A stretch of 64,000 bases of DNA, taken from positions 62,001 through 126,000 of the forward strand of contig JAKADX010000002.1 of NCBI GenBank assembly GCA_021818505.1. Reading direction: 5' to 3'. Position numbers and translations under genes: made by a program. Below, piece after piece: positions 28,666 to 54,207 of this stretch (within the stretch, counting starts at the first letter, position 1; every line of letters begins with the position of its first letter). A model generated the notes under the pieces. The model searched no databases. It was given only the letters and a program-made list of their open reading frames with translations, and was not told where the DNA came from. The DNA comes from Pseudomonadota bacterium. GTDB lineage: Bacteria > Pseudomonadota > Alphaproteobacteria > Acetobacterales > Acetobacteraceae.

Positions 28666-30027
28666 ATGACGCTGCGGCACTGGGCCAGGCAGGTGCTGCG
28701 CGCGCAGCGCCTGACCCCGGCCGCGCACCATCGGCTGCTGCTGGACGAACTCGACGCGCTGGCATCACGGCGATCCGACCGGCTGCTGGTGGCCATGCCG
28801 CCGGGCAGCGCCAAAAGCACATACGCCAGCGTGATCTTTCCGGCCTGGATGCTGCGCCGGCGCCCGCGCACACGCATCATCGCCGCCTGTCACACCGAGC
28901 AGCTCGCCGCCCATTTCGGCCGCCAGGTGCGCGCGCTGCTCGCCGCCGAATCGGACAAGGACGGGGACGAGCCGGGCGAGGCCGCGATCGCGCGCGACGA
29001 ACGCGCCGCCGCGCGGTTCGCGACCAGGGCCGGCGGCGGATATTTCGGGGTCGGCGTGCGCGGGCCGTTGGCCGGGCGGCGTGCCGACCTGATCGTCATC
29101 GACGACCCGGTGAAATCCTGGGCCGAGGCCGACAGCGAGGCGGCGCGGCAGGCGCTGTGGGACTGGTTCCGCGCCGACCTGACCACGCGCCTGTCGCCCG
29201 GCGGGCGGATCGCGCTGGTGATGACGCGCTGGCACGAGGATGACCTGGCCGGCCGCGTGCTGGCCGCCGAGGATGGCTGGCGCACGTTGATTTTGCCCGC
29301 GCTGGCCGACGCGGATGACGACCCGCTCGGCCGGGCGCCGGACGCGCCGCTCTGGCCGGCGCAGGAGGACGCGGCGGCCCTGGCGCGCCGGCGTTCGGTT
29401 CTCGGCCCGCGCGCCTGGGCGGCGCTGTATCAGCAACGCCCCAGGTCGGACGCCGAGGCGCTGTTCCAGACCGCCCGCATCGCGGTGCTGGAGGAGCCGC
29501 CGGCCTGCCGGCGCGTGGTGCGCGCCTGGGACCTGGCGGCGACGGCGGCCGGCGGCGCCGCGCGCGACCCGGACTGGACGGTGGGCGTGAAGCTCGGCCG
29601 CACCGAGGCCGGCGGCGTGGTCGTGCTGGATGTGCTGCGCCTGCGCGCGGGGCCGGCGGAGGTCGCGCGGATGATCGTGCAGACGGCGAAGCTCGACGGC
29701 GGCAGCGTGCCGGTCGGCCTGCCGCAGGACCCCGGACAGGCGGGCAAGCAGCAGGTGGCGTGGCTTTCGGGCCTGCTGTCCGGCTTTCGTGTCGTCGCCG
29801 GGCCGGAGACCGGATCGAAGCTGACCCGCGCGACGCCCGCCGCGGCCGCGGTCGCGGGCGGACAGATGGCAGTGCTGCGCGGGAACTGGAACCGCGCCTT
29901 CCTCGATGAGCTGCGCGACTTTCCAGGCGGGCGCAAGGACGATCAGGTGGACGCGCTGGCCCGCGCGCTGGCGATGCTGAGCGAGGCGCGGGCGCGGCGG
30001 CTGGATGTGGCGTTCATGGGGCGCTGA
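28666..30027 (+). CDS. Phage terminase large subunit (TerL)
   Basis: 453 residues. The packaging ATPase has Walker A in MPPGSAKST (44-52) and Walker B DLIVIDDPVK (141-150) with a catalytic acidic residue, plus the coupling segment MTRWHEDDLAGR. The C-terminal RNase H-like nuclease has acidic residues in AWDLAAT and the closing KDDQVDALARALAM, plus the GLPQDPGQAGK segment found in many TerL proteins. All key residues look intact, so the motor could be functional. First gene of the cluster. No small-terminase gene is recognisable upstream. The ribosome-binding site is weak (CCGGAACCGAC). Confidence 0.93.
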   Translation: MTLRHWARQVLRAQRLTPAAHHRLLLDELDALASRRSDRLLVAMPPGSAKSTYASVIFPAWMLRRRPRTRIIAACHTEQLAAHFGRQVRALLAAESDKDGDEPGEAAIARDERAAARFATRAGGGYFGVGVRGPLAGRRADLIVIDDPVKSWAEADSEAARQALWDWFRADLTTRLSPGGRIALVMTRWHEDDLAGRVLAAEDGWRTLILPALADADDDPLGRAPDAPLWPAQEDAAALARRRSVLGPRAWAALYQQRPRSDAEALFQTARIAVLEEPPACRRVVRAWDLAATAAGGAARDPDWTVGVKLGRTEAGGVVVLDVLRLRAGPAEVARMIVQTAKLDGGSVPVGLPQDPGQAGKQQVAWLSGLLSGFRVVAGPETGSKLTRATPAAAAVAGGQMAVLRGNWNRAFLDELRDFPGGRKDDQVDALARALAMLSEARARRLDVAFMGR

Positions 30028-30048
30028 GGGTCTTTTCGTGGAGATCGC

Positions 30049-31458: not shown

Positions 31459-31529
31459 CGGGAGAGGGGGCGAATAGGGCGTTGCTTGCTTCTCCCTCTC
31501 CCGCTCGCGGGAGAGGGCCGGGGTGAGGT
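31432..31529. repeat. REP-like pair overlapping the portal 3' end
   Basis: Two inverted CCCTCTCCCGC/GCGGGAGAGGG hairpins, flanked by CCCTCACCCCGG and CCGGGGTGAGG, are separated by about 30 bases. The first arm codes for the last eight or nine residues and the stop of the portal. Confidence 0.87.
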
Positions 31530-31554
31530 GCCGGCGACAGAAAGGATGCAGTGC

Positions 31555-31926
31555 ATGAGCGAAGAAACGACCACCGACGACGTCGCCACCCTCCAGGCGC
31601 GCATCGCCGAGATCGAGGCCGATGCGCGCGCGCGCATCCTGCGCGCGGAGCTGCGCGCGGAGGCAGTGCGCGCCGGCATGGTCGATCTGGACGGGATCAA
31701 GCTGATCGACACCGCGCGCGTGCGCTTCGCCGAAAGCGGCGAGGTCGAGGGCGCGGCGGCGCTGATGCAGGAGATGAAGCGCGCGAAACCGTGGCTGTTC
31801 GCGCCCGCGTCATCGTCCTCTACCGCCGCGGCGCCAAAGACCGAGCCGCCGCGCGCGAAGTCGGCGATGGAGATGAGCGAGGAGGAATGGCGCGCGGCGC
31901 GCGCGGAGATGCTGCGGCGACGCTGA
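31555..31926 (+). CDS. Putative head scaffolding/morphogenesis protein
   Basis: 123 residues from ATG 31555, with AAAGGA upstream. The longer frame from 31486 translates the REP-like repeat and is rejected. The N-terminus is a charged coiled-coil helix (LQARIAEIEADARARILRAE), the middle reads VDLDGIKLIDTARV, then a KPWLF segment, and the C-terminus is helical (MSEEEWRAARAEMLRRR). The position between portal and capsid, size and helical content fit a scaffold. No protease motif is seen. Confidence 0.65.
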   Translation: MSEETTTDDVATLQARIAEIEADARARILRAELRAEAVRAGMVDLDGIKLIDTARVRFAESGEVEGAAALMQEMKRAKPWLFAPASSSSTAAAPKTEPPRAKSAMEMSEEEWRAARAEMLRRR

Positions 31927-31964
31927 GACGCCGAGGCGAGTGAACCACGACAACGAGGACCGAC

Positions 31965-33287
31965 ATGGGCATCCAGAACTTTCCCGCCGCCTTGCAGCCG
32001 ATCATCCAGCAGGGCTTCCTGGAGCGCGAGTTCCAGGCCGCGCTGAGCAGCAAGCTCGGCTACCGCGCCGTCGCCGACCGTGAGGAGTTCGCCGTCGGCA
32101 TCGGCGAGACGCTGACCAAGACGCGCGCGGGACTGAAGCCCAGCATCACCACGCCGCTGGCGCCGGCGACCAACACCAACCTCGACAACGGGCTGACGCC
32201 GGCGAGCTTCGGCGTGGAGCAGTACACGCTCACGCTGAACTTCTACGCCGCCACCGCCGACCTCAACATCGTCACCAGCCGCGTCGGCATCGCCAGCCAG
32301 TTCCTGCTGAATGCCGCGATCAACGGCGAGCAGGCGGCGCGCAGCCTGGACGAACTCGCGCGCAACGCGCTGTTCGCCGCGTATTTCGGCGGCAACACGC
32401 GCGTGCGCACGGCGCTTTCCACCGCGCAGCCGACGGTGGAGGTGGACGACATCCGCGGGTTTCAGTCCGTCTTCGTCAATGGCGTGCAGCAGCCGGTGAG
32501 TGCGGCCAATCCGCTGGCCGTGATGGTGGGCGCGGATCAGTACACGCTGGTCGGCGTGACGGCGGACGCGAGCAATGTCTCGATGGCGCCGAACGGGATT
32601 TCCGGCACGCTGACCTTCTCCGCCAACGTCTCCACGACCGACGGTGCGGCCGGGGCGACGGTGCAGGCGGCGACCGCGAGTGCGATCCTGCGGCCGAACG
32701 CGCGCACCAACACCTCCCTGGTGCAGTCCACCGACCAGCTCGACATGAGCACGCTGCTGGCGGCGGTGGCGACGCTGCGGCAGAACGCGGTGCCGGAGAT
32801 CGACGGCGCCTACAACTGCTATCTCGATCCGCAGAGCGCGCGGCAGTTGTTCAACGACCAGGCGTTCCAGCGCCTGTTCACCGGGGCCACCAGCGCCAAC
32901 GCGGTGTACAAGCGCGGCATGGTCAACGACTTCCTCGGCCTGCGCTTCGTGCCGACGACGGAGGCGTTCGTGCAGGCGCATCCGACGATCAACGGCGCCT
33001 TGATCCGCCGGCCGATCGTGTGCGGCAAGGGCGCACTGATCGAGGGCGACTTCGCCGGCATGGACAAGGCCGACGTGGCGCCGAAGGACGCCATCGTGTC
33101 GATGGTCGATAACGTCGCGATGGTGACGCGCGAGCCGATCGACCGCCTGCAACAGATCATCGCGCAGAGCTGGTACTGGATTGGCGGTTTCGTCGCCCCG
33201 TCCGACACCACGACCACGCCGACGACGGTGCCGACCGCGACCAACTCCGCGTTCAAGCGCGCGGTGATGATCGAGCACATCGGCTAG
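31965..33287 (+). CDS. Probable major capsid protein
   Basis: 440 residues, preceded by GAGGACCGAC. The position after the scaffold and length suit a capsid protein. GIQNFPAALQPIIQQGFLER opens a mobile N-arm. LNFYAATADLNIVTSRVGI and AINGEQAARSLDELARNALF look like the spine helix and P-domain. An Ala/Thr/Val-rich insertion (about 165-250, VTADASNVSMAPNGISGTL) may be a surface domain. YNCYLDPQSARQLFNDQAFQRLF and GMVNDFLGLRF are typical of coat proteins of large-capsid families. The Thr-rich DTTTTPTTVPT near the C-terminus is a flexible linker. Confidence 0.8.
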   Translation: MGIQNFPAALQPIIQQGFLEREFQAALSSKLGYRAVADREEFAVGIGETLTKTRAGLKPSITTPLAPATNTNLDNGLTPASFGVEQYTLTLNFYAATADLNIVTSRVGIASQFLLNAAINGEQAARSLDELARNALFAAYFGGNTRVRTALSTAQPTVEVDDIRGFQSVFVNGVQQPVSAANPLAVMVGADQYTLVGVTADASNVSMAPNGISGTLTFSANVSTTDGAAGATVQAATASAILRPNARTNTSLVQSTDQLDMSTLLAAVATLRQNAVPEIDGAYNCYLDPQSARQLFNDQAFQRLFTGATSANAVYKRGMVNDFLGLRFVPTTEAFVQAHPTINGALIRRPIVCGKGALIEGDFAGMDKADVAPKDAIVSMVDNVAMVTREPIDRLQQIIAQSWYWIGGFVAPSDTTTTPTTVPTATNSAFKRAVMIEHIG

Positions 33288-33288
33288 C

Positions 33289-33394: not shown

Positions 33395-33412
33395 CGGGGC
33401 ACGAGGCAGCAG

Positions 33413-33790
33413 ATGGCATTCACATCGGCGCAGGCGGCGGACATCCGCCGCTTCTGCGGCTATCCCGCATACGGCGCGGGGCCGGCGGGGTTTCAGGGCT
33501 GGCGGTTCTTCACCGCCTACGGGCTGCTGGAATTCCGCATCAACAACCTCAGCACGGACGAGGAGAACGTGGTCAGCAACTATCTCGTCCAGCTCAACGT
33601 GCTTGAGGGCGCGGTGACGGAGAGCGGCGAGCGGCTCGATACCGCGCAGGCGTCGATCTGGACGCGCAATCCGGCCGAATTGCGCGAACGCATCGCGCTG
33701 TTCGACACCTGGCGGCGGCGGCTGTGCGGGTTTCTCGGCTTGCCGCCGGGACCGGCCCTGGGCGACGGCACGCTGCGCGTGGTGGTGTGA
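33413..33790 (+). CDS. Probable head-tail connector protein
   Basis: 125 residues. It sits directly after the capsid gene, the usual place of a head-completion protein, and overlaps the next gene by one base (TGATG). Mostly helical, with an aromatic N-terminal region (FCGYPAYGAGPAGFQGWRFF) and C-terminal LREFDTWRRRL-like helix (ALFDTWRRRLCGFLGLPPG). No motif identifies it beyond context. Function by position only. Confidence 0.6.
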   Translation: MAFTSAQAADIRRFCGYPAYGAGPAGFQGWRFFTAYGLLEFRINNLSTDEENVVSNYLVQLNVLEGAVTESGERLDTAQASIWTRNPAELRERIALFDTWRRRLCGFLGLPPGPALGDGTLRVVV

Positions 33791-34446
33791 TGCTGCCAGG
33801 TCGCAATGTGCCGGACGCGATCCGGCGGGGGCTGGGGCTGGCGGCGCGCGGGGCGGGCGACTGGTGCGACCTGTATCGCGCGACCTCGGCCGAGATGCCG
33901 CTGGCGATCGGCAACCGCGCGATGCGGCTGCCCGCCGCGTTCGTCGCGGTGTCGAACCCGCAGGCGGCGGTTTCGTACGGAGCCGCGGTCTGGCAGGGAA
34001 TTTTCGATGCCGGCTATGCGCGGCCGGGCGATTATCTGGTCGGCAACGACGGCGTGTTCTTCATCGCCTCGATGCCGCGGCTGGGGCCGGTGCTGTGCGT
34101 CAAGGCGAACCGCACGGTGACGCTGGAGCGGCCGAACCCGCCTTCGCTGGCGGGGCTGACGCGCTATGGCGGCGTGCAGCAGGCGCAGACGACGGCGCTG
34201 ATGACGGCGTGGCCGGCGAGCGTGCTGGCGCGTCAGCGCGACGGCGGGCGCGGCGCGCTGCCGGGCGACGCGCCGGGGGTCACGGGCGGCGCGGGCGGCT
34301 GGGAAGTGCTGATGCCCGGCACGCCGGGCGTGCTGCTGCGGCCAGGCGATCTGGTGCGCGACGATCTCGGCCGCACCGCGGTGCTGTCGGGGACGGAGCT
34401 GACCGCGCTCGGCTGGCGATTGTTCGCACGGCAGGCGGGAAGCTGA
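33790..34446 (+). CDS. Phage neck/tail-completion protein, unassigned
   Basis: 218 residues from ATG 33790, overlapping the previous stop and the next start by one base each (TGATG both times), so translation is coupled. Contents look mixed alpha/beta: GDWCDLYRATSAEMPLAIG, then GDYLVGNDGVFFIASMPRLG, then a Gly-rich stretch and LMPGTPGVLLRPGDLVRDDL. The last part resembles a small beta-barrel. Its place between connector and sheath suggests a neck or tail-terminator role. Confidence 0.55.
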   Translation: MLPGRNVPDAIRRGLGLAARGAGDWCDLYRATSAEMPLAIGNRAMRLPAAFVAVSNPQAAVSYGAAVWQGIFDAGYARPGDYLVGNDGVFFIASMPRLGPVLCVKANRTVTLERPNPPSLAGLTRYGGVQQAQTTALMTAWPASVLARQRDGGRGALPGDAPGVTGGAGGWEVLMPGTPGVLLRPGDLVRDDLGRTAVLSGTELTALGWRLFARQAGS

Positions 34447-35279
34447 TGGCCGATCAGGCGGATGTCGAAGCGGCGCTGGCCGGCATCGTCGGCGGGGCGC
34501 TGTATCCGAGCGGGCTGGAAGCCGGCTGCGTCGTGCCCGGTGCCGTCGTGCGCATCTATCGCGGCTGGCCGACGCCGGCCGCGCTGGACGCCGATCTTGC
34601 AGCCGGGCGCGTCAATGTCAGCGTCGGCGGCGTGCCGGGATCGACGCGGCTGACGACGCGCTATCCCGACCAGTGGCGTGTGGTGAAGCCGGCGGTGCCG
34701 GTGCTGTCGGCATCGGTTGCGGCTGGCGTCGCGACCTTTGCCGGTACGGCAACGCTGGGTCAGCTCGCCGCGCTGCTGGTCGATGGGCGCGCGGCCGTGC
34801 ATCGCACCGAGGCGGGCGACACGCCGGCGAGCGTGGCCGCGGCGCTGGCCGGCGAGTTGCGGCAGGTCGGCGTGAGCGCCACGGCGAACGGCGCCGCCGT
34901 GACCGTGAGTGGCGCGCGCAGCGTGGTGGCGCGCATCGTCGCCGACCAGGTGGCGACGCGCGAGACGCGGCGGCAGTTGCAGCATTTCGCGGTGACGTGC
35001 TGGTGCGCCGATCCGCCGACGCGCGACGCGATCGGCGCCGCCATCGACGCGGCACTGTCGGGCATCGACTTCGTCGGCCTGCCGGACGGATCGAGCGGAC
35101 GGGTGCTGTTCGTCGCCTCCGTCACTTCCGACCGCTGGGAGGATGCGACGCTGTATCGCCGCGAACTGACCTACAGCGTCGAATACGCGACCACGATCAC
35201 CGCGACGCAGCCGAGCATGATCGTGGGCGGGACGCAGATTTCGCCCGAAGGTAGCACGATCGCCAACCTGCTGGGCTGA
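34446..35279 (+). CDS. Phage structural protein upstream of sheath, possible tail terminator
   Basis: 277 residues from ATG 34446. The first 70 residues (MADQADVEAALAGIVGGALY, RIYRGWPTP) and the last 100 (QLQHFAVTCWCADPPTRDAI, RRELTYSVEYATTI) flank a repetitive central module (VSASVAAGVATFAGTATLGQ, then DTPASVAAALAGELRQVGVS). That module resembles the FG-loop or flagellin-IN-like segments also seen in the long fibre. The C-terminal YSVEYATT- strand pattern is typical of tail terminators. By position and size it is a tail-completion or terminator candidate. Confidence 0.5.
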   Translation: MADQADVEAALAGIVGGALYPSGLEAGCVVPGAVVRIYRGWPTPAALDADLAAGRVNVSVGGVPGSTRLTTRYPDQWRVVKPAVPVLSASVAAGVATFAGTATLGQLAALLVDGRAAVHRTEAGDTPASVAAALAGELRQVGVSATANGAAVTVSGARSVVARIVADQVATRETRRQLQHFAVTCWCADPPTRDAIGAAIDAALSGIDFVGLPDGSSGRVLFVASVTSDRWEDATLYRRELTYSVEYATTITATQPSMIVGGTQISPEGSTIANLLG

Positions 35280-35297
35280 CCGCAAAGGAGAGACAGA

Positions 35298-36869
35298 ATG
35301 CCGATCGTGCAGCAGGGCAGCATCAACACGACCGCGCTGGTGGTGCCCGACCTCTATGTCCAGATCGTGCCGCCGCAGAACCTGGTGCTGAACGGCGTGC
35401 CGACCGACATCGTCGGGATCGTCGGCAGCGCGAGCTGGGGGCCGGTGGGCCAGCCGGTGATCGTCGGCGGCATGGCCGACTATGCTGTCGCGTTCGGCCC
35501 GGTGATGGCGCGCACATACGACATGGGCACGCAGGTCGCGACGGCGGTGCAGCAGGGTGCGCAGAACTTCCGCTGCGTGCGCGTGACCGACGGCACGGAC
35601 AGCGCGGCGTCGCTGGCGCTGCCGTCGATCGGGTTCACGTTCACCGCCGCCTATACCGGCAGCCTGGGCAACCAGATCAGCGTGGCACTGAGCAGCGGGT
35701 CGAAGGCGAACACCTGGCGGCTGACGGTGGCGCTGCCGGGTCTGGTGCCGGAGGTGTACGACAACATCGCAGGCAGCGGTGCGGCATTCTGGCAGGCGCT
35801 GGCAAGTGCGGTGAATGCCGGGCAGGGGCCGCAGCGCGGACCGAGCGCGCTGGTGACGGCCGATGCCGGCGTGGCGAATGTGGCACCGGCGGCGTTCAGC
35901 TACGCGTTCAGCAGCGGCACGCCGGGCAATGACGGGGCGGCCGGCGTCAACGCGGGCGTGCTGGTGGGGTCGGACGTGATCCCACGCAAGGGCATGTATG
36001 CGCTGCGTGGCCAGGGGTGCAGCATCGCGCTGCTGGCGGACGCCGATGACGCGACGCAGTGGACGACGCAGGCGGCGTTCGGGCTGTCCGAAGGCATCTA
36101 CATGATCCTGACCGGCCCGGCCGGGGACACCATCGCCAATGCGGTCAGCACCAAGCAGTCGGTGGGGCTCGATACCTACGCCTGCAAGCTGATGTTCGGC
36201 GACTGGATCTGGTGGAACGATCCGGTGAACGCGGTGCTGCGCGTGGTTTCGCCGCAGGGTTTCGTGGCGGGGCGCTTGGCCAATCTCTCGCCCGAGCAGT
36301 CGAGCCTGAACAAGCCGCTCTATGCCGTGGTGGGCAGCCAGAAATCCGGCGCGCCGGGCAGCGGGCAGAACAGCAGCTACGCCACCGCCGACCTCGCGGC
36401 GCTGTTGCAGGCGGGGATCGACGTGATCGCCAATCCGCAGCCGGGTGGCGCGTTCTGGGGCGTGCGCGGCGGGCACAACGCCAGCAGCAATGCCGCGACC
36501 AACGGCGACAACTACACGCGGCTGACCAACTACATCGCCGCCACGCTTGCCTCCGGCATGGGGCAGTATGTCGGGCAGGTCATCAATGCCACGTTGTTCC
36601 AGCGCATCCGTGCCACGCAACTGAGTTTTCTGCAGAACATGCTGAGCCAGGGGATGCTGGGCAGCACCGACGGCAGCCTGCCGTACAGCGTGATCTGCGA
36701 CACGTCGAACAACCCGACCAGCCGCACGTCGCTGGGTTACGTGCAGTCGGACGCGCAGGTGCAGTACCAGGCGATCAACGAGAAGTTCATCGTCAACATC
36801 GAGGGCGGGCAGACCGTGCAGGTGGCGACACAGGTGTTGCCGGGCACGCCGGGGGCGCTGGCGGCGTAA
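35298..36869 (+). CDS. Contractile tail sheath protein
   Basis: 523 residues, usual for sheath, preceded by AAAGGAGAGACAGA. The N-terminal domain has GVPTDIVGIVGSASWGPVGQP and the middle is variable. The C-terminal conserved domain carries GVRGGHNASSNAATNGDNYT, RLTNYIAATL and the end IVNIEGGQTVQVATQVLPG. These are hallmarks of the gpFI/gp18-type sheath that contracts around the tube. Its presence defines the element as myovirus-like rather than RcGTA-like. Confidence 0.93.
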   Translation: MPIVQQGSINTTALVVPDLYVQIVPPQNLVLNGVPTDIVGIVGSASWGPVGQPVIVGGMADYAVAFGPVMARTYDMGTQVATAVQQGAQNFRCVRVTDGTDSAASLALPSIGFTFTAAYTGSLGNQISVALSSGSKANTWRLTVALPGLVPEVYDNIAGSGAAFWQALASAVNAGQGPQRGPSALVTADAGVANVAPAAFSYAFSSGTPGNDGAAGVNAGVLVGSDVIPRKGMYALRGQGCSIALLADADDATQWTTQAAFGLSEGIYMILTGPAGDTIANAVSTKQSVGLDTYACKLMFGDWIWWNDPVNAVLRVVSPQGFVAGRLANLSPEQSSLNKPLYAVVGSQKSGAPGSGQNSSYATADLAALLQAGIDVIANPQPGGAFWGVRGGHNASSNAATNGDNYTRLTNYIAATLASGMGQYVGQVINATLFQRIRATQLSFLQNMLSQGMLGSTDGSLPYSVICDTSNNPTSRTSLGYVQSDAQVQYQAINEKFIVNIEGGQTVQVATQVLPGTPGALAA

Positions 36870-36881: not shown

Positions 36882-37310
36882 ATGTCGGGCAACACATTCT
36901 CGGTCGGCCGCGACTGTCAGGTCGTGGTGATGGGGCCGTACGGGCGCGTCGATCTGACGCATGTCACCGGCTTCGAGAGCCGGCAGCTCACCGCCTCGGT
37001 GCGCGTCGATCGCATCGACGGCACGCATCTGGGCGCGGAGCTGCCGAAGGGCTGGGAGGGGCAGTTCGATCTGGAACGCGGCAGTTCGGCGGCCGAGGAT
37101 TTCATCGCGCGGGTGGAGGCGGATTTCTACGCCGGCCGCGCGCCGGCGGCGGGCACGATGTATCAGTACATCGCGGAGTCCGATGGTTCCACCAGCACCT
37201 ATCAGTTCGACGGTGCCGTGTTCCGGTTGTCGCACGCCGGCGCGTGGAAGGGTGATGCCAGCGTCAGGCAGCGGCTGGAGTTCTTCGCATCGACAAGGAC
37301 GCGGCTGTGA
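36882..37310 (+). CDS. Tail tube protein
   Basis: 142 residues, 12 bp after the sheath and preceded by GGGGAGAGCAGG. A small all-beta tube monomer: FSVGRDCQVVVMGPYGRVDL, a VTGFESRQLTASVRVDRIDG segment, and YQFDGAVFRLSHAGAWKGDA near the end. Pairing with the upstream sheath is diagnostic. The stop overlaps the GTG start of the chaperone (GTGA). Confidence 0.88.
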   Translation: MSGNTFSVGRDCQVVVMGPYGRVDLTHVTGFESRQLTASVRVDRIDGTHLGAELPKGWEGQFDLERGSSAAEDFIARVEADFYAGRAPAAGTMYQYIAESDGSTSTYQFDGAVFRLSHAGAWKGDASVRQRLEFFASTRTRL

Positions 37311-37666
37311 GCGACACGCCCTCCGCCCGGCTGATCGCGGCGGCGCAGGCAGCGCCAGCGGCGATCGACGCGACCGGGCGGCACCTCTCGCTGCGGCGGC
37401 TGACGGCGCTGGACAAGCTGCGGCTGTACAAGGCCGCGGGTCCGGCGCTGGCGCAGAACGCGCCGTGGATGGGGGTGGCCCTGCTGGCCGCGAGTGTCAC
37501 CGCGATCGACGACATTCCCGTCCCGGCGCCGGCGACCGAGACGCAGATCGAGGCGCTGGTCGGCCGGCTCGGCGAGGACGGGCTGGCGGCGGTAGCCGAT
37601 GCGCTGACGCTGCCGGCGGACGGCGTGGAGGACGCGGCGGGAAACTCGCCCGGCACCCCGACTTGA
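37307..37666 (+). CDS. Tail assembly chaperone, unshifted form
   Basis: 119 residues from GTG 37307, which overlaps the tube stop by four bases. Mostly helical (LRRLTALDKLRLYKAAGPALAQ; ETQIEALVGRLGEDGLAAVADAL), consistent with a gpG-type chaperone that binds tape-measure protein. Its end, GNSPGTPT then TGA, lies just after the slippery heptamer. The -1 shifted product is described separately. Confidence 0.75.
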   Translation: MSDTPSARLIAAAQAAPAAIDATGRHLSLRRLTALDKLRLYKAAGPALAQNAPWMGVALLAASVTAIDDIPVPAPATETQIEALVGRLGEDGLAAVADALTLPADGVEDAAGNSPGTPT

Positions 37667-45835: not shown

Positions 45836-46492
45836 ATGACCGGAGATTCTGCCGACATGCTGGCGAGGCTTGCGAGTCTGCTGCCGCTGCGCTGGTTTCC
45901 CGATCCGAGCCCGGTGCTCTCGGCGCTGCTCGCGGGACTGTCCGACGGCTGGGCATGGCTGTATTCGATGCTCGGCTACGCAAGGCTGCAGACGCGCATC
46001 GCCACCGCGACCGACAGCTTCCTCGACCTGGTCTCGTTGGACTGCTTCGGCGGCACGCTACCGCGCCGCACCGGCGAGAGCGACGATTCCTTCCGCGCGC
46101 GCATCCGGCGCGAATTGCTGCGCGAGCGGGCGACGCGGCCGGCGCTGGTCTCCGTGCTGACCGACCTGACCGGCCGCGCGCCGGTGATCTTCGAGCCGGC
46201 GCGACCGGCCGATACCGGCGCGTATGGCGTCGCCCTCGGCTACGGCGTGGCCGGTGGTTGGGGCAGCCTGGCTCTGCCGTTCCAGGTTTTCGTCACCGCG
46301 TTCCGCCCGCTCGGCGCCGGCGTGCCGAACGTGGCGGGCTGGGGCGTTGGTGCGGGCGGCTGGGGCGTGGGCGCGATCGAATACGCCTCCCGCCCGATGA
46401 TCGAGGCGCAGGTCGCCGACGCCGACATCACCACCGCCATCGCGCGCACCATGCCGGTCGCGACGATCGGGTGGACTCGGATTTCCGACTGA
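45836..46492 (+). CDS. Baseplate/tail protein I (gpI-like)
   Basis: 218 residues, starting one base after gpJ. N-terminal helices (MLARLASLLPLRWFPDPSPV; LSALLAGLSDGWAWLYSMLG) and the GESDDSFRARIRRELLRERA helix match tail-protein-I-type wedge proteins. The C-terminal half is Gly/Trp-rich (GYGVAGGWGSLALPFQVFVT; VGAGGWGVGAIEYASRP) and may bind the fibre. The J-then-I order is standard for P2-like baseplates. Confidence 0.78.
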   Translation: MTGDSADMLARLASLLPLRWFPDPSPVLSALLAGLSDGWAWLYSMLGYARLQTRIATATDSFLDLVSLDCFGGTLPRRTGESDDSFRARIRRELLRERATRPALVSVLTDLTGRAPVIFEPARPADTGAYGVALGYGVAGGWGSLALPFQVFVTAFRPLGAGVPNVAGWGVGAGGWGVGAIEYASRPMIEAQVADADITTAIARTMPVATIGWTRISD

Positions 46493-46514: not shown

Positions 46515-47747
46515 ATGGACCGCATCATCGTCTATCCCGGCAGCATTCCGCAGGACACCGACCTGCTCAACACCAACCGCAACGTCATGCTGGCGCTGCA
46601 CGGGCTGATCGCGGCAACGCTCGGCACCACGACGGCGGTCGATGGGTTGCAGGTGGCGCCGACCTCGCCGGCGTCGATGAACATCACCGTCAGCCCCGGC
46701 ACGCTGACGCAGTATGGCCCGGTGGACAGCATCGGCTATGGCTCGGTCGCCGCCGACACGCTGGATCAGATCGTCAAGCAGGCGGTGCAGCTTCAGCCGG
46801 TGACGATGTCGCTGACCGCGCCGCTGACGGCCGGCACCACCATCGGCTATCTGCTGGAGGCAGCGTTCAGCGAGGCCGACACCGACGCGACGGTCCTGCC
46901 CTACTACAACGCCGCCAATCCGACGCAGCCGTATCTTGGGCCGGGCAACAACGGCTCGGCGCAGAACACGCTGCGCCAGCAGAGCGTGGTGTTGCAGCTG
47001 AAGGCCGGCGCGCCGGCGACCACGGGCACCGAGGTGACGCCGCCGGTCGATCCGGGCTGGGTGGCGCTGGCGGCCATCGCGGTCAGCTACGGTGCGACCG
47101 CGATCGACAGCTCGCTGATCTTCCCTGCCTGGACCACGCGGTTTGTCAATTTCAAGCTGCCCGATCTTCGGCCCGGCTTTGCCAGCGCCGTCGCCTTCAC
47201 CAGCAGCGGCAGTTTCACCGTGCCGGTGGGCGTGACGCGGCTGAAGGTGCGCGTGGTGGGCGGCGGCGGCGCCGGCGGGACGCACGCGACGCAGCCGGGC
47301 GGCGGCGGCGGCGCGGGCGGGGAGGCGACGGAGTGGCTCTCCGGCGTGGTGCCGGGGACGATCATTCCCGTCACCGTCGGCGCCGGCGGGCAGCCGAGCA
47401 GCGGCGCGGGCAATGGCGGCACTGGCGGGGCCAGCAGCTTCGGCAGCTACGTGTCCGCGACCGGCGGGACCGGCGGCGGCGGCGGGTCCGGCAGCGGCAC
47501 GCCGACGGGCGGGCAGGGCGGCAGCGGCAGCGGCGGGACGGTGAATCTCGCCGGCTCCTGGGGCGGTGATGCGATCCCGTCCGCCGGGCGTGGCGGCGAT
47601 GGCGGTGGGCCGGGCGCGGGCAAGGGCGGCACGGGTGTTGCCGGACAGAGCGCGCCGGCGGGCAGTGCCGGTGGCGGCGGGGGCGGCGGCGGCAACGGGC
47701 TGGCGGGCGGCGCCGGCGGCGGCGGCCTGGTCATGGTGGAGTACTGA
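46515..47747 (+). CDS. Tail fibre/adhesin with glycine-rich tip
   Basis: 410 residues, preceded by CGAGGACCGCA. Residues 1-210 are a baseplate-attached region (NTNRNVMLALHGLIAATLGT; LTQYGPVDSIGYGSVAADTL). Residues about 215-410 are a glycine-rich module opened by FTSSGSFTVPVGVTRLKVRV and made of GGGG/GAGG runs, ending GGGGLVMVEY. Such modules can form polyglycine-II helix bundles, as in some Salmonella-phage adhesins. It may contact the host surface. Confidence 0.75.
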   Translation: MDRIIVYPGSIPQDTDLLNTNRNVMLALHGLIAATLGTTTAVDGLQVAPTSPASMNITVSPGTLTQYGPVDSIGYGSVAADTLDQIVKQAVQLQPVTMSLTAPLTAGTTIGYLLEAAFSEADTDATVLPYYNAANPTQPYLGPGNNGSAQNTLRQQSVVLQLKAGAPATTGTEVTPPVDPGWVALAAIAVSYGATAIDSSLIFPAWTTRFVNFKLPDLRPGFASAVAFTSSGSFTVPVGVTRLKVRVVGGGGAGGTHATQPGGGGGAGGEATEWLSGVVPGTIIPVTVGAGGQPSSGAGNGGTGGASSFGSYVSATGGTGGGGGSGSGTPTGGQGGSGSGGTVNLAGSWGGDAIPSAGRGGDGGGPGAGKGGTGVAGQSAPAGSAGGGGGGGGNGLAGGAGGGGLVMVEY

Positions 47748-47750
47748 GCG

Positions 47751-48242: not shown

Positions 48243-48249
48243 CGCGCAG

Positions 48250-48362: not shown

Positions 48363-48382
48363 CGCCTTTTTCGGAGACCCCG

Positions 48383-51300
48383 ATGCCGACAGTGCAGCAA
48401 TTGCCTGCCGCCACCACGGTCAATCTGACCGACGACATCATGCTCGACCAAAACGGCACCAGCGTCAACGCGACGGTGGCGCAGGTGCTCGACGCGATGC
48501 CGCTCGGCACGGGGCTGGTACGCAACGGCGATACGGTGGCGGCGGATACGACGGTGCTGGCGCCGCTGGCCAGTCCGACACTGACCGGCACGCCGAGCGC
48601 GCCGACGCCGCCGCCGGGCGACAACTCCACGCTACTTGCCACGACCGCGTTCGTGATGGCCAATACCGGCACTGCCGTCGGCACCGGCACGCTGACGCTG
48701 ACCGGCGACGTGACCGGCACGGGCAGCGGCACCATCGCGACCACGCTGGCGAGCGTGGCCACCGCCGGCACCTATGAGCGCGTCACCGTCGATGCGAAAG
48801 GGCGCGTGACCGCCGGCGGGACGCTCGGTGCCTCGGACATCACCGCCGCGCTCGGCTTCACGCCGATCGCCGGCAACGAGACCATCACGCTGTCCGGCGA
48901 CATTGCCGGCAGCGGCGCGACGGCGATCACGGCCACATTGCCGGTCGTGGTGAATCCCGGCGCCTATGCCAAGGTCACGGTCGATCCGAAGGGACGTGTC
49001 ACGGCCGGCGGCGCGCTCGGCACCGCCGATATCAGTGCCGCGCTGGGCTATGTGCCGATCGGCGCGAACGAGACGATCACGCTGTCGGGCGACATCAGCG
49101 GCAGCGGCACGACCGCGATCACCGCGATGTTGCCGGTGGTGGTGGCGCCCGGCCCGTACGCGAAGGTGACGGTGGATGCCAAGGGGCGCGTGACCGCCGG
49201 CGGCCCGCTCGGCACCGCCGATATCAGCGCCGCGCTCGGCTATGTGCCGATCGGTGCCAACGAGACGATCACGCTGTCGGGCGACATCAGCGGCAGCGGC
49301 GCGACCGCGATCACCGCGACGCTGCCGGCGGTGGTGGCGCCGGGCGCTTATGCCAAGGTGACGGTCGATGCCAAGGGGCGCGTCACCGCCGGCGGCACGC
49401 TGGCGGCGGGCGACCTTGCCGGTGTCGATCTCTCCGGAGCCGACGCGACGGCGAGCGGCGCGGCGACCGCGCGCACGCTGGCCGCGCGCGCGCATGACGT
49501 CATCAACGTGCTGGACTACGGCGCCGATCCGACCGGCGCGAGCGACAGCGCCGCCGCTTTCTCCGCCGCGATGAGCGCGGTGGCGTCGGGTGCCTGGGGA
49601 CGTGTGTTCGTGCCGCGCGGCACCTATCAACTCGCCAGCGTCGTCAACCAGCCTTCGGGCCGGTCGATCGCGGTCATCTTCGACGACGGTGCCAACATCA
49701 GCGGCGCCGGCTATCTCGGCGTCGATCGCGTGGAGAGCGCGCAGGGACCGTTCGCGCTGCGCCAGAACGCCGGCGGCTTCTTCGGCTTCGCGCCGACTGT
49801 CGGCGACGCGGCGAACCCCGGCTTCGCCACCGACCTGATCTTCAACACGCCGCAGAACAGCCTGTCGATGCGCGTCGGCTGGGACCGGCGCTACACCAAC
49901 ACGAACATCTACGGCAAGGTCCACAGCGGCATCGATATCGCCGAGCAGCGGGTGCATTCCTGGCCGAACCTGTACGACAACAGCTCCGGCTGGGGGCTGT
50001 GGGAAGTCATCAACGGCCCCACGATCGACGAGGACACCGCTGCGCGCGCCGGGCTGTCGGCCTCGGCGGAGTTGTGCGAGATCGACGTCGTCAACAACCA
50101 GGCCGAGGCCGGCTGGACCTGGCAGGCGGGCCAGGGCAACACCGTGCAGGGCATGTCGATCGACCCGTGGGGGCAGAACGGCCTCTATGGCGGCAATATC
50201 CTGTTCACCTACGGCACGGTCGGTTCGTACGACGGCAATGCCGGCGGGCTGAACGCGCGCTGGTTCAGCTATCCGGCGGTGTTTTCCTCGGGCAATCCGC
50301 CGGCGGTCCCGGCCGGCGGCACCATTGTCGTCAACGGCACCACGATCACCCTGACGGCAGGCGAGAGTCTCGCGAACATTGCCGCCGCGATCAATGCCGC
50401 CGCCATCGCCGATGTGCGCGCCGCCGCGACGACATGGGGCGGGGTGGTGTCGCGGCTGGTGATCTACAGCACGGCGGCAGGCGATCTCGGCACGTTGACG
50501 CTGTCGGGCACGGCGTTGCCGGTCCTGGGCATCGCGTCGGGCAGCTACACGACGCCGCGCGGTCAGTACGCCGCCGCCGTCGGCGACGCCGGAGCGGTCG
50601 CGGTCGGCGACAAGCTGGTGGTGAACGGTGCGACGGTGACGGTGGGCGGCGCCGGCGCAGCGTCTGACGTGGCGGCGGCGATCAATGCCGCGGCCATTCC
50701 CGGCATCGCCGCCGACACCAACGCCAACGGCGTCATCGTCATCACCTGCTTCATGCCGCTGCAATCCGGCGGGCTGGTGCTGGCGGATGCGAGCGGCTTC
50801 ACGACGCTGGAAAAGATCGGGCTGCGGCCTGGCACGTACCTGCCGCCGACGCCGCCCAAGGGGTTCGCGACGGCGTATTCCGACGTGACCTCGCCGGTCT
50901 GCCTGCCCACCGACCAGATCACCATCAGCGCGACCGACATCAACGGCACGGCGTATGGTCCGGTCACGGTGACGCTGAATGGCGGCGCCGGCACCGGCTG
51001 GCCACAGGACGTGGCGGCGTCGATCCAGGCGTCGCTGATCGCCGCCGGCTTCTACGGCAGCGACTTCACCGCGCTGTCTTCCGGCAGCGCCGTGGTGGCC
51101 GTGCGCGCCGTCGGCGGCGGGCTGAACCAGGGCGTGCAGATCAGGAATACCGCCGGTGGCACCCTGACGCTCGCGAACGCGCACGGCGCGCCGCTCGATA
51201 CGCTCGGCATCGCGCCAGGGACGTATCAGCCGGGCGGCTATTCCGCCGGCTCGCAGACCGTGTTCATGGCGGCCGAGGACGCGATCGCCGCGGGCGGGCG

Positions 51301-52690
51301 CGGCGTGTTCATCGGCGGCGTGTCGAACGCGACCGACCTCACGGTCTGGCCGCACACGCCGCTGGAGACGCGCGGCGGCTTCCTGCACGGGCTGCGGCTG
51401 GATCGCGCGACCTATGCCGACGGCAACGCGATCGTCGTGGCCCCGACGCATGCGATCGCCTGGGGCAGCGCCGCGCAGGGGCAGCACACGCTCGCCGTTG
51501 CGTCGGGCACATTGCAGTTCGACGGTCAGCCGATCGTCAACAGCGTCGCCTTCGACGCCGCGTTCGGCAGCGAGGTCGGCGACCTGCTGGTGCGCACCGC
51601 CTCGGGCTGGGCGGCGCTGACGCCGGGCGCGCAGGGGGCGACGCTGACGGCGAACGGGCCGGGCACCCCGATCGCGTGGACCCAGCCGCCCGCGGCGGAG
51701 TGGACCGCCGGCGCGGTCGCCGCGCTCGGGGTCGGCCTGACGCTGAATGCCGGCACGCTGGAGACAGCACCGGCAACGACCGTGTTCACCTCCAACGGCA
51801 TCTGGACGCCGCGGGCGACCAGCACCTTCGCGCGCGTCCGGTTGCTCGGCGGGGGCGGCGGCGGCGGCGGCGGGGCGCAGACGGCAAGCGGGACGCAGGC
51901 GGCGGGGGGGGGCGGGGGCGGCGGCGGCGGGGTGTTCATCTGGCAGGGGCGCATCGGCGACCTGCCGGCAGGTCCCTACACGGTCACGATCGGCGCCGGG
52001 GGCACCGGCGGCGCCGCGGCGAGCGCCGCCGGCACCGCCGGCAGCAACGGCGCGGCCGGCGGGACAACGACGCTCGCCAATGTCGGGCAGGCGGGGGGCG
52101 GCGGCGGGGGCGCCGGCGGTCAGATCAACGGGGCAAGCGGCGCCGGCGCAAGTGGCATGGGCGCCGCCTATGGCATCGCGCTGACGCTGACCGGGGGCAC
52201 GGCGTCGGGGCCGAACGGCGGCGGCGGCAATGGCTTCGGCAATGCCGGCGCGAGCAACGGCACCCAGGGCACCACGGTCTCCTTCGGCCCGGTCGGCTCG
52301 CCGGGCGGCGGCTGCACGGCGGCGGGGGTGGCGTGTCAGGGCGGCCTCTCGCCCGCGCAGCCTTCGGGCGGCGGCGCGGGCGGCGGCGTTTCCAGCGCGC
52401 CGGGATCGAACAACGGGGCGACTGGCGGATGGGTCGCGGCGTATGTCACGACCGAAGCGGCCGGCGGCAGCAGCACCACCCCGACCGGCAGCGCCGGCAC
52501 GCCGGGCGTCGGCAACCAGCCCGGCACCGGCGGCGGCGGCGGCTATGGCAATGCCGCCGGCCCAGGCGGGGCGGGCGGGGCCGGCGCCAATGGCGGCGGC
52601 GGCGGCGGCGGCGGAACCTGCCTGAACGGCTCCACGCCCGGCGCCGGCGGTCCCGGCGGTGCCGGCCTCGCCGTGATCGAGGAGTGGTGA
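48383..52690 (+). CDS. Long tail fibre with pectate-lyase-like and glycine-rich domains
   Basis: 1435 residues from ATG 48383, preceded by GGAGACCCCG. Order: N-terminal attachment region (VQQLPAATTVNLTDDIMLDQ), three 64-residue repeats (about 135-330: ITLSGDISGSG-TAIT, YAKVTVDAKGRVTAGG), a beta-helix opening (VINVLDYGADPTGASDSAAA, VFVPRGTYQLAS), then NG-T-T / ANIAAAINAAAI modules like flagellin-IN repeats, then a C-terminal glycine-rich tip (RLLGGGGGGGGG) to the end GLAVIEEW. A pectate-lyase-like fold often degrades or binds capsule or LPS glycans. This is the likely specificity determinant. Confidence 0.82.
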   Translation: MPTVQQLPAATTVNLTDDIMLDQNGTSVNATVAQVLDAMPLGTGLVRNGDTVAADTTVLAPLASPTLTGTPSAPTPPPGDNSTLLATTAFVMANTGTAVGTGTLTLTGDVTGTGSGTIATTLASVATAGTYERVTVDAKGRVTAGGTLGASDITAALGFTPIAGNETITLSGDIAGSGATAITATLPVVVNPGAYAKVTVDPKGRVTAGGALGTADISAALGYVPIGANETITLSGDISGSGTTAITAMLPVVVAPGPYAKVTVDAKGRVTAGGPLGTADISAALGYVPIGANETITLSGDISGSGATAITATLPAVVAPGAYAKVTVDAKGRVTAGGTLAAGDLAGVDLSGADATASGAATARTLAARAHDVINVLDYGADPTGASDSAAAFSAAMSAVASGAWGRVFVPRGTYQLASVVNQPSGRSIAVIFDDGANISGAGYLGVDRVESAQGPFALRQNAGGFFGFAPTVGDAANPGFATDLIFNTPQNSLSMRVGWDRRYTNTNIYGKVHSGIDIAEQRVHSWPNLYDNSSGWGLWEVINGPTIDEDTAARAGLSASAELCEIDVVNNQAEAGWTWQAGQGNTVQGMSIDPWGQNGLYGGNILFTYGTVGSYDGNAGGLNARWFSYPAVFSSGNPPAVPAGGTIVVNGTTITLTAGESLANIAAAINAAAIADVRAAATTWGGVVSRLVIYSTAAGDLGTLTLSGTALPVLGIASGSYTTPRGQYAAAVGDAGAVAVGDKLVVNGATVTVGGAGAASDVAAAINAAAIPGIAADTNANGVIVITCFMPLQSGGLVLADASGFTTLEKIGLRPGTYLPPTPPKGFATAYSDVTSPVCLPTDQITISATDINGTAYGPVTVTLNGGAGTGWPQDVAASIQASLIAAGFYGSDFTALSSGSAVVAVRAVGGGLNQGVQIRNTAGGTLTLANAHGAPLDTLGIAPGTYQPGGYSAGSQTVFMAAEDAIAAGGRGVFIGGVSNATDLTVWPHTPLETRGGFLHGLRLDRATYADGNAIVVAPTHAIAWGSAAQGQHTLAVASGTLQFDGQPIVNSVAFDAAFGSEVGDLLVRTASGWAALTPGAQGATLTANGPGTPIAWTQPPAAEWTAGAVAALGVGLTLNAGTLETAPATTVFTSNGIWTPRATSTFARVRLLGGGGGGGGGAQTASGTQAAGGGGGGGGGVFIWQGRIGDLPAGPYTVTIGAGGTGGAAASAAGTAGSNGAAGGTTTLANVGQAGGGGGGAGGQINGASGAGASGMGAAYGIALTLTGGTASGPNGGGGNGFGNAGASNGTQGTTVSFGPVGSPGGGCTAAGVACQGGLSPAQPSGGGAGGGVSSAPGSNNGATGGWVAAYVTTEAAGGSSTTPTGSAGTPGVGNQPGTGGGGGYGNAAGPGGAGGAGANGGGGGGGGTCLNGSTPGAGGPGGAGLAVIEEW
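48788..49400 (+). repeat. 192-bp tandem repeats in the long fibre gene
   Basis: The segment GTCGATG-CAAGGG-CGTGACCGCCGG recurs at 48788, 48980, 49172 and 49364, exactly 192 bases apart. Three complete 64-codon units are present, plus a partial one. Copies 2 and 3 are nearly identical. Such repeats can recombine and change fibre length. Confidence 0.85.
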
Positions 52691-52696
52691 GGCAGC

Positions 52697-53020
52697 ATGT
52701 CCGACACTGCGGGCCACGGGCTGCTCGCCTGGGCCGGGATCGCCGTCAGCGCGATCGGCGGCCTGCTCGGCCATCTGCACCTGCGCGTGAGCCGGCTGGA
52801 GGATCGCGTCAGCGACGGCCACGCGGCCTTGCAGGCGCAACTGGGCGGCGGCGACGACAAGCTGTGGCTGGGCCTGGCCGAGATGCGGCGCGACGAGGTC
52901 GCCTTCCGCGAGCGGCTGCTGCGCGAGATGGCGAGCAAGGCCGACATCAGCGAGTTGCGCGCGAGCGTCGAGCGCCTCGCCTCCGACTTCGCGCACCACC
53001 GCCGCGGCGGCGGCGACTGA
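52697..53020 (+). CDS. Small membrane protein with coiled coil, lysis-associated
   Basis: 107 residues. One N-terminal transmembrane helix (GLLAWAGIAVSAIGGLLGHL) is followed by heptad-rich helices (RVSRLEDRVSDGHAALQAQL; ISELRASVERLASDFAHH). Position immediately before the lysozyme and size suggest a spanin-like or accessory holin role. No lipobox or second gene embedded in it was found, so a two-component spanin is not demonstrated. Confidence 0.6.
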   Translation: MSDTAGHGLLAWAGIAVSAIGGLLGHLHLRVSRLEDRVSDGHAALQAQLGGGDDKLWLGLAEMRRDEVAFRERLLREMASKADISELRASVERLASDFAHHRRGGGD

Positions 53021-53030
53021 GGAACCCGAC

Positions 53031-53573
53031 ATGGACGTGTTCGCAAGGGCCTTCGCCGTCGTGATCGGCGAGGAGGGCGGGTGGTCGGCCGAGCGCGCCG
53101 ATCCGGGCAACTGGACCGGCGGGGCGGTGGGCAGCGGCGCACTGCGCGGGACGAAGTTCGGCATCTCGGCGGCGGCCTATCCGACGCTGGACATCGCCGC
53201 GCTGACGCTGGCCGAGGCGCAGGCGATCTACCGCCGCGATTACTGGGACCGGGTGCGCGGCGACGAGCTGCCGCCGCCGCTGGCGCTGCTGGTGTTCGAC
53301 GCCGCCGTCAACAACGGCGTCGGCCGCGCGGCGCGCTGGCTGCAACTCGCCGCCGGTGCCGCGCCGGACGGTGTGATCGGGCCGGTCACGCTGGCGGCGG
53401 TCGCGGCGCGTGCCGGGGAGGGGGACGCGCTGTGCGCCGAATTCCTGGCCCGGCGCATGGACTTCATGGCGACGCTGCCGACCTGGCGCAGCTTCGGCCT
53501 CGGCTGGGCGCGGCGCCTGTGCGCGCTGCCCTATCGGTCGATGACGTTTTTCGAGGGGGGTTCCAATGGTTGA
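53031..53573 (+). CDS. Endolysin, GH108-type N-acetylmuramidase with peptidoglycan-binding end
   Basis: 180 residues. The catalytic Glu15 lies in VIGEEGGWS, the EGG signature of GH108, followed by KFGISAAAYP and ALTLAEAQAIYRRDYWD. The C-terminal part (LLVFDAAVNNGVGRAARWLQ; DGVIGPVTLAAVAA) is a family-typical peptidoglycan-binding module. No signal peptide, so it needs a holin. It overlaps the holin gene by 8 bases. Confidence 0.9.
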   Translation: MDVFARAFAVVIGEEGGWSAERADPGNWTGGAVGSGALRGTKFGISAAAYPTLDIAALTLAEAQAIYRRDYWDRVRGDELPPPLALLVFDAAVNNGVGRAARWLQLAAGAAPDGVIGPVTLAAVAARAGEGDALCAEFLARRMDFMATLPTWRSFGLGWARRLCALPYRSMTFFEGGSNG

Positions 53574-54207
53574 CATCGCGGGCGTCGCGGAGGACGCGGC
53601 GAAGGGCGCCGCCATGGGCAGCGTCGTGCCGGGCATCGGCACGGTGGTCGGCGCGGTCGGCGGCGCGGCGCTGGGCCTGATCGGCGACAGCGACGTGGCG
53701 AAATGGCTGTTCGGCAGCAAGGGCGCGGCGGTCGCGCAGAAGGCGGTCGCGGCCGTGCAATCGGTCACCGGCACCACCGATCCGGCGGCGCAGGACGCCG
53801 TCCTCGCCAGGGATCCGCAACGCGCCGTGCAGCTCAAGCTGCAACTGACCCAGATCGCGGCCCAGCAGGCCGAGGCGGTGCGGCAGGACGCGCTGACGGC
53901 GCTGCAGGCGCGGCTGAAGGACGTTCAGGACGCGCGCACCCAGCAACTCGGCCTCGCCAAGGCCGGCAGCCGCGTGCAGTGGGCGCCGGCGATCGTCAGT
54001 GTCGTGGTGCTGGCTACCTTCGCCGTCATGATGTGGGCCGCGCTGACGCGGCAGTTGCCGCCGGGCAGCGAGACGATCCTGAACGTGCTGATGGGGATGC
54101 TCGGTGCCGGCTTCACCGCTGTGCTGAATTTCTGGCTGGGCAGCAGCAGCGACAGCCACCGCAAGACCGACCTGCTGTTCCAGAGTTCGCCGCCGCCCGC
54201 TACGTAG
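53566..54207 (+). CDS. 3TM-type phage holin
   Basis: 213 residues. An N-terminal Gly/Ala-rich hydrophobic helix (GSVVPGIGTVVGAVGGAALG), a charged helical middle (LKLQLTQIAAQQAEAVRQDA) and two C-terminal transmembrane helices (APAIVSVVVLATFAVMMWAA; ILNVLMGMLGAGFTAVLNFW) ending WLGSSSDSHRKTD. This matches the three-TM holin family found beside GH108 endolysins. The late placement after lysozyme makes it the last cluster gene; the next gene is on the opposite strand. Confidence 0.85.
   Translation: MVDIAGVAEDAAKGAAMGSVVPGIGTVVGAVGGAALGLIGDSDVAKWLFGSKGAAVAQKAVAAVQSVTGTTDPAAQDAVLARDPQRAVQLKLQLTQIAAQQAEAVRQDALTALQARLKDVQDARTQQLGLAKAGSRVQWAPAIVSVVVLATFAVMMWAALTRQLPPGSETILNVLMGMLGAGFTAVLNFWLGSSSDSHRKTDLLFQSSPPPAT

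Follow-up and report, generated by a model that had tools for sequence, protein, structure and literature searches.

A phage-derived contractile-tail gene cluster of the Acetobacteraceae as a probable trans-regulated gene transfer agent

Described systems and the present locus

The RcGTA and CcGTA gene transfer agents (GTAs) combine a structural gene cluster with unlinked regulators, and the same arrangement is found for the locus described here, a phage-derived gene cluster at positions 28666-54207 of a window from an Acetobacteraceae genome. The window is the whole 64-kb stretch of DNA that was analysed, G000:C92:62001-126000 of a 4.44-Mb GC-rich draft genome (G, C and L numbers are our own handles for genomes, contigs and loci). 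As far as the accessible text of the papers cited here goes, in Caulobacter RogA acts as the repressor of gafYZ, and GafZ is probably an antiterminator (PMC11150451, PMC9632790), whose sole target is the promoter of the GTA cluster, with a putative site between -35 and -10 (PMC11150451). The tails of BaGTA and BhGTA are non-contractile (PMC9662315), and a survey reports, in its accessible part, no RcGTA-like cluster among 62 Acetobacterales genomes (PMC6821227). In a literature search that covered few subscription papers, we found none naming a GTA in this group. The RcGTA tail is non-contractile. In contrast to RcGTA, the present cluster has a contractile sheath gene that is present and conserved. 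This genome also has no match to DUF2460, which we take to be an RcGTA-type tail protein marker, or to DUF6456, presumably the domain of GafA/GafZ, while the Caulobacter control was positive for both. As these RcGTA-type markers are absent from this genome, the element would be an independent case.

Our reading, to which we assign a probability of roughly 0.72, is that the locus descends from a phage, has been domesticated and is inherited vertically, and that it works as a trans-regulated contractile-tailed GTA would. GTA function would be the simplest account of a particle that is maintained, packages DNA, injects DNA and is switched on by the host. We also lean towards the wider proposal of a new contractile-tailed GTA family that goes back to the ancestor of much of the acidophilic Acetobacteraceae (Acetobacterales). 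Its host switch would be a Q21-fold antiterminator taken over from the ancestral phage, now unlinked and acting in trans, as an independent parallel to GafZ control. The original prediction, made from the letters of the window, had left two alternatives, a domesticated GTA-like element or a prophage stripped of its early module; our results support domestication and give no support to a freshly stripped prophage.

Among true phages, the best match to the capsid comes from the temperate Komagataeibacter myophages phiKX1 and phiKX2 (51.5% to phiKX1), and the portal, sheath, tube and baseplate J proteins of phiKX1 also cluster with those of the window. However, phiKX1 differs in having an integrase, a small terminase (TerS) adjoining its large terminase (TerL) and a 742-aa tape-measure candidate, and it has no match to the window-type TerL at the cut-off used. 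The closest phage TerL, at 46.4%, is that of Acetobacter phage phiAO1, whose capsid is not among the matches in a comparison that covered TerL and capsid only. Shared phage-like contigs from Sphagnum match Acetobacteraceae genomes and carry structural, packaging and lysis genes with, in the accessible part of the report, no complete lysogeny module; there they are read as temperate or degraded prophage, and that part mentions GTAs only in general (PMC12142844). Likened by description only, these contigs are possibly fragments of the present element.

Distribution, inheritance and constraint

A search of 397 Acetobacteraceae genomes with the capsid gave a match in 166, and the identities among the matches listed fall into two groups, 64-100% and 53-59%. 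The upper group, defined by E<=1e-160 plus the partial matches G153 and G016 in lists compiled by hand, comprises 107 of the 397 genomes (105 full-length and 2 partial, by hand tally) and spans about 38 genera, also by hand tally, including all five genomes of the window's genus; weaker matches of unlisted identity (e.g. G173, G274, G313 and G413) were counted as without. More than one capsid match occurs in four of the 107 genomes and the rest have a single one. Named carriers among the best 80 of 211 relatives include Acidocella facilis, A. aromatica, A. aquatica, Acidiphilium iwatense, Acidisphaera rubrifaciens, Acidisoma silvae, Rhodopila globiformis and Limobrevibacterium. IMG/VR holds at least 513 relatives. 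The 53-59% group resembles phiKX1, and in two of its members, G029 and G052, a small-terminase-like gene was seen by eye to adjoin a different TerL. The tape-measure open reading frame (ORF) of G029 is short and no integrase lies in the fetched span, and some members of this group may also be domesticated.

Relatives keep the order terL-portal-scaffold-capsid-...-sheath-tube-...-baseplate-fibre wherever their contigs reach, so that the synteny which the original prediction proposed to look for in related genomes is indeed conserved. A tree of nine cluster genes shares 12 of 27 splits with a tree of rpoB and uvrB for the 30 genomes having uvrB, terL and capsid (rpoB matched in 28 and was used for 25, the rest being gaps), whereas 2000 label shuffles gave a mean of 0.21 common splits and a maximum of 3. 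Eight of the nine strongly supported marker splits are recovered in the cluster tree. The 30 genomes tested point to vertical inheritance with the host, as expected of a GTA. The host gene rlpA lies just before terL in nine of ten members of one cluster-tree clade (the exception is G002), as well as in G127 and, one gene further away, in G106; such a position is expected if the locus was inherited in place. In G002 (L040/L041) two extra genes stand between terL and portal, one of them bearing what we take to be a PEP-CTERM-like end.

Within genera, the ratio of nonsynonymous to synonymous substitution rates (dN/dS) is 0.05-0.44 for particle genes versus 0.04-0.15 for rpoB/uvrB, where estimable among seven pairs and 11 cluster genes, several pairs being saturated at synonymous sites (zeros stand for saturation). 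The dN/dS check proposed with the original prediction therefore reveals purifying selection on particle genes in the pairs tested, and this includes TerL, portal and capsid, again as in a GTA. The TerL residues K50-S51-T52, D146-D147, D289 and D425/D426/D429, presumably the Walker A, Walker B and nuclease aspartates, are invariant in 30 of 30 sequences.

Genes for integration or excision were found neither on this contig nor in the regions examined, another feature of GTAs. PF00589 integrase has eight matches in this genome but none on the window's 199-kb contig; a local integrase profile, run on 53 fetched regions (1.51 Mb), matched only the integrase of the control phage phiKX1 itself, and it gave no match in another 160 loci, 80 each from genomes and from IMG/VR, some of which overlap the 53 regions. 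This profile recovered 7 of 7 leave-one-out controls, with L182 and L184 excluded as unmatched by the motif filter. Across 32 genomes the PF00589 search listed best matches, and outside G000 the absence beside the cluster also draws on the profile searches of regions and loci. The small terminase of phiKX1 matches only itself among the 53 regions, and the phiKX1-like combination of integrase and small terminase beside the structural genes was not found. No tRNA lies within the 64-kb window, and the two flanks have no exact word in common longer than 15 nt, which is what random window pairs give (mean 14.9, maximum 26, n=51). Searched with the TerL DNA, the genome gave only short, chance-like matches besides the true locus. 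The earlier statement that no integrase, recognisable small terminase or attachment-site-like repeat accompanies the cluster has thus stood up.

These absences would equally fit a defective or cryptic prophage that has lost its early module and is decaying, and so would the stop within the G227 capsid and the lack of TerL beside the cluster in G004 (L043), a member of the window's genus. We consider decay improbable, since the cluster spans about 38 genera with capsid frames open among the matches listed except in G227, purifying selection acts on its head, tail and packaging genes, its tree is congruent with that of the hosts, and a dedicated promoter is conserved. In G004 this promoter stands directly before portal (oriented contig ~876-1064), and terL may be lost or moved.

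Late promoter and regulatory cassette

The promoter lies upstream of terL:

28560..28608, plus strand: conserved late promoter, position weight matrix score 39.7, 106 nt before terL

It is made up of a -35-like TTGCCC, an embedded CCCC(A/G) element, a -10-like TATA and then a CATGATGG-like block, with the consensus CTTGCCCAnangCCCCanntTggnnTATanatntngncATGaTgg. The promoter is present in 74 of 83 distinct 300-bp sequences upstream of terL, some of them from one genome, at a cut-off that none of 415 shuffled sequences reached. Of the nine misses, at least four (G106, G006, L213 = G127 and L193 = G053) have it further upstream, and once the 300-bp limit is lifted it stands ahead of terL in all 30 in-hand genomes that carry this gene, a presence that is partly by construction and must be discounted to that extent, since the matrix was built from terL upstream regions, while other locations are independent. 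Outside the cluster, no match was found in 36 regions (1.18 Mb), and in this genome the promoter is unique at up to three mismatches. Before terL there are two sites in G010 and G056, and G014 has one between portal and scaffold. The promoter is absent from phiKX1, G029 and G052. In phage 21, the binding site of Q is a direct repeat in the spacer between -35 and -10, and Q also depends on a -10-like pause element downstream of the start (PMC6606751); the conserved spacer element here, together with the conserved CATGATGG-like block after -10, resembles this Q-binding element (QBE) promoter.

In many relatives, the cassette before terL consists of an XRE repressor gene on the minus strand facing a GcrA-like helix-turn-helix (HTH) gene and a DUF6362 gene on the plus strand. 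In this genome the cassette (XRE repressor, RepA-like ATPase and DUF6362) is found at C92:58408-61371, 29 kb left of TerL. The claim that neither repressor nor replication gene is visible is therefore correct inside the cluster, but the control cassette lies to its left, outside the window. An integrase and repressor module just outside the cluster in relatives had been named as a sign against domestication; no integrase was found in the regions examined, but the relatives' repressor module is indeed often just upstream of TerL. A 213-aa LexA/S24-type repressor (G000:C92:56341-56982, L099) sits 1.4 kb from the cassette and agrees in size and make-up with what is described for Caulobacter RogA; in G043 and G120 a member of its family lies downstream of the cluster. 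Several large proteins of one family, seen at window positions 15793-16974 and in L099, stand near the cassette and left of the cluster and have a common C-terminal part, which to our eyes is Hint-like.

The families traced as unlinked parts were XRE, GcrA-like, RepA-like and DUF6362. With DUF6362 called at E<=1e-43 plus the truncated G003, in a list compiled by hand, 96 of the 397 genomes have both cluster and DUF6362 and 260 have neither, while 11 have the cluster only and 30 DUF6362 only; the odds ratio is 76, for genomes that are not independent. The DUF6362-only genomes include G102, G177, G225 and G262 of one genus; in the DUF6362-only genomes the cluster may be lost, divergent or unassembled. 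Capsid and DUF6362 lie within 10 kb of each other in 32 genomes, 10-50 kb apart in nine, and 58 kb, 230 kb, 1.14 Mb and 2.66 Mb apart along one contig in four; in 51 they are on different contigs of drafts, which hence give no distance. These contig distances ignore circularity, so that for the 3.64-Mb contig of G195 the distance in the opposite direction would come to ~0.98 Mb if the contig is closed. Production genes are dispersed in the genome, as in GTAs, though in 32 genomes they lie within 10 kb. The distances between DUF6362 proteins also follow those between clusters (r 0.46, p 0.0001, n=22), including in the subset at least 29 kb apart or on another contig (r 0.67, p 0.003, n=8, with G055 at 29 kb and G000 at 33 kb from capsid to DUF6362). 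Since DUF6362 tracks the cluster in both co-occurrence and distances though often unlinked, its association with the cluster seems to be maintained by inheritance and not by linkage alone.

An active temperate or plasmid-like phage, with its regulatory-replication cassette split from the structural genes and moved by an as yet unrecognised integrase or transposase, could also account for an XRE repressor and a RepA/primase-like ATPase in the cassette and for the 32 genomes with cluster and cassette within 10 kb. Related true phages do exist (phiKX1, capsid 51.5%), myophages of acetic acid bacteria are mitomycin-inducible (PMC8566455), and the relatives in IMG/VR number at least 513. However, the regulator is at least 230 kb from the structural genes on one contig in three genomes and on a different contig in 51 (drafts, hence no distance), no integrase was found near cluster or regulator in the regions examined, and the best 80 IMG/VR contigs are all at most 31.3 kb. 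We therefore give an active phage little credence, and prefer the domesticated, GTA-like element.

Gene content, tail length and the balance of evidence

The gene finder, which uses a codon model, places 27 plus-strand genes from TerL (28666) to the holin-like gene (end 54207), and PHROG and Pfam name among them TerL, portal, scaffold, major capsid, sheath, baseplate wedge, baseplate J, fibres and a GH108 endolysin:

28666..30027, plus: large terminase (TerL); phrog_38 E 3.6e-91, PF17289, PF03237
30049..31458, plus: portal; phrog_145/64
31486..31926, plus: scaffold; PF06810, phrog_194
31965..33287, plus: major capsid protein; phrog_1357 E 1.5e-35
33413..33790, plus: conserved head/neck protein, role unassigned; phrog_14539, conserved in relatives
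33790..34446, plus: conserved head-tail joining protein, by position; phrog_14605 (longer frame 33724-34446)
34446..35279, plus: conserved 277-aa protein before sheath; family in 33/35 clustered regions including phiKX1
35298..36869, plus: contractile tail sheath; phrog_23 E 7.8e-47
36882..37310, plus: tail tube, by position; phrog_12993 (without named function)
37307..37666, plus: tail assembly protein, by position; phrog_20383
37663..37815, plus: conserved 50-aa protein, tail-chaperone-like by position; family in 10/35 regions
37800..38564, plus: Pro/Ala-rich tape-measure candidate, at most 254 aa; longest ORF in the interval, by position
38568..39251, plus: conserved tail protein, by position; phrog_21362 (without named function)
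39318-41585 and 41582-42451, plus: two glycosyltransferase genes, apparent insertion; PF13704
42503..42688, plus: conserved 61-aa tail protein, by position; family in 23/35 regions
42675..43709, plus: baseplate/tail protein; phrog_52
43724..44245, plus: baseplate spike candidate, by position; family in 27/35 regions
44335..44706, plus: baseplate wedge; phrog_120, phrog_975
44710..45834, plus: baseplate J; PF04865, phrog_6
45857..46492, plus: baseplate protein; phrog_26379, phrog_7378
46515..47747, plus: tail fibre 1; phrog_863, PF21722
47751..48242, plus: fibre-tail adaptor; PF23148 Gp77
48383..52690, plus: large tail fibre/spike; phrog_7389, PF12708 pectate-lyase-like
52697..53020, plus: small protein with one membrane-like segment and a coiled region, from sequence; lysis accessory by position
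53031..53573, plus: GH108 endolysin; PF05838, PF09374, phrog_315
53566..54207, plus: holin-like membrane protein, named from hydrophobic segments; phrog_1544 (function not known)

For the 277-aa protein before sheath, a relative's sequence has no Pfam match, and for the small protein at 52697..53020 no PHROG or Pfam family was found. Host genes adjoin the cluster directly, with rlpA (minus strand), a response regulator and histidine kinases on the left and EAL, dnaE2 and mscL (all minus strand) on the right. A complete set of phage-derived head, packaging and tail genes is thus retained in a host chromosome, as in GTAs, and the original prediction of a co-oriented head, packaging, contractile tail and lysis cluster directly between host genes is confirmed. 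Two of the genes (39318-42451), however, are glycosyltransferase genes and not tail genes. This pair looks inserted because it is absent from 15 of 15 relatives in which both neighbours (g12 and g16) were found; among relatives, only the prophage-type G052 gives a match, a weak one of 26%. The GC content of 39318-42451 is 0.673 versus 0.72 in the surrounding cluster. Glycosyltransferases in a tail module may modify fibres or surface.

In the tape-measure interval the longest ORF has 245-456 aa in 26 of 27 clusters and 103 aa in G183, a few of these ORFs being clearly in the wrong frame or over-long; the window's candidate has 254 aa versus 742 aa in phiKX1 and 768 aa in G052. Several relatives, read by eye, keep both ends of the phiKX1 tape measure around a Pro/Ala-rich middle, and by the same inspection the start in the window's genus differs from the phiKX1-type start. 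Tail length follows a rule of ~0.15 nm per tape-measure residue. By this rule the 254-aa candidate would give a predicted tail near 40 nm. The tails of acetic-acid-bacteria myophages have been measured at 156 nm (PMC8566455).

The large fibres and the short tape-measure candidate, together with the lack of TerL beside the G004 cluster, might suggest a contractile weapon or protein-delivery particle of the tailocin kind, whose head genes are kept only for assembly. This is unlikely, as TerL, portal and capsid are all constrained and the ATPase and nuclease residues of TerL are intact; to our knowledge, known tailocins are without TerL, portal and capsid genes. Least probable of all is that the host retains the particle for some other advantage, for example to interfere with related phages or for programmed lysis, and that packaging is incidental; this would suit the conserved promoter and the lysis genes of this genome but leaves the constraint on the packaging and injection machinery unexplained.

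Several observations weigh against a trans-regulated, GTA-like element. The particles, their packaging of host DNA and its transfer to kin are predictions from the genes. As many as 290 of the 397 family genomes are without the >=64% capsid, and the 30 genomes with DUF6362 but no such capsid, like the 11 with the reverse, do not fit, mismatches that are possibly due to fragmented assemblies. The correlation between cluster and marker distances is modest (Mantel r 0.33, p 0.0009, 30 genomes). DUF2460 is found in 20 of the 397 genomes, eight of them cluster-bearing, including G001 of the same genus. Besides the G227 capsid stop and the missing G004 TerL, stops are flagged in the portal alignments of G006, G106 and G043 and in the G003 sheath; some of these are alignment ends, because the same flag appears in 5 of 25 rpoB alignments. 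The tape-measure ORF of the prophage-type G029 is also short, at ~309 aa. A RepA/primase-like ATPase is encoded in the cassettes of G000, G037, G038, G106 and G127, though not called in several others, and given this primase/helicase-like protein in some cassettes the element may replicate like a phage.

The identity of the regulator has to be weighed in the same way. A DUF6362 model with mean pLDDT 80 gives phage 21 Q as its top four rows in VIA-align (Z 8.1-9.0), the best covering DUF6362 residues 27-165 (Z 9.0, root-mean-square deviation 3.4, 108 aligned), but with helical models a Z below about 13 may reflect no more than a shared arrangement, and rows for sigma region 4 follow at Z ~7-8, about 1 Z below the Q rows. 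Foldseek gave no significant match for the model (best E 0.16). DUF6362 is without sequence match to any PDB chain, neither its profile nor that of the capsid matching PDB sequences, and the fold match is not decisive. Thus DUF6362 weakly resembles the phage 21 Q antiterminator; given the Foldseek result and the Z caveat for helical models, this likeness is a lead that agrees with the promoter and not a proof. No homology between DUF6362 and DUF6456 was detected (hhalign probability 0.1). One DUF6362 protein, searched by tblastn at E 1e-3, has no match among 50,697 phage records; it matches phrog_6836 (E 1.7e-16, function not known), and so phage relatives exist. No mention of DUF6362 was found in the literature searched.

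On the reading that we favour, a phage ancestor would have been domesticated in the Acetobacteraceae, losing integrase and small terminase while keeping head and packaging genes and a short tail. The XRE repressor cassette would release DUF6362, which would act in trans as a Q-like late regulator or antiterminator at the single promoter before TerL; both the repression by XRE and the antitermination by DUF6362 are presumed roles. The operon of ~25.6 kb would then be switched on to give small contractile-tailed particles, whose heads TerL, without a recognisable small terminase, would fill with host DNA by a headful mechanism, and holin and endolysin would release them. With named species among the carriers, induction and transfer are directly testable.

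If this is true, the Acetobacteraceae would hold an independent domestication that follows the same logic as known GTAs, with the integrase lost, the head kept and the late promoter placed under a separate regulator. It would also represent a widespread contractile-tailed, trans-regulated equivalent of GTAs, as opposed to the non-contractile BaGTA and BhGTA. The finding further suggests that many IMG/VR 'virus' contigs of this group, with their at least 513 relatives, may be loci owned by the host.

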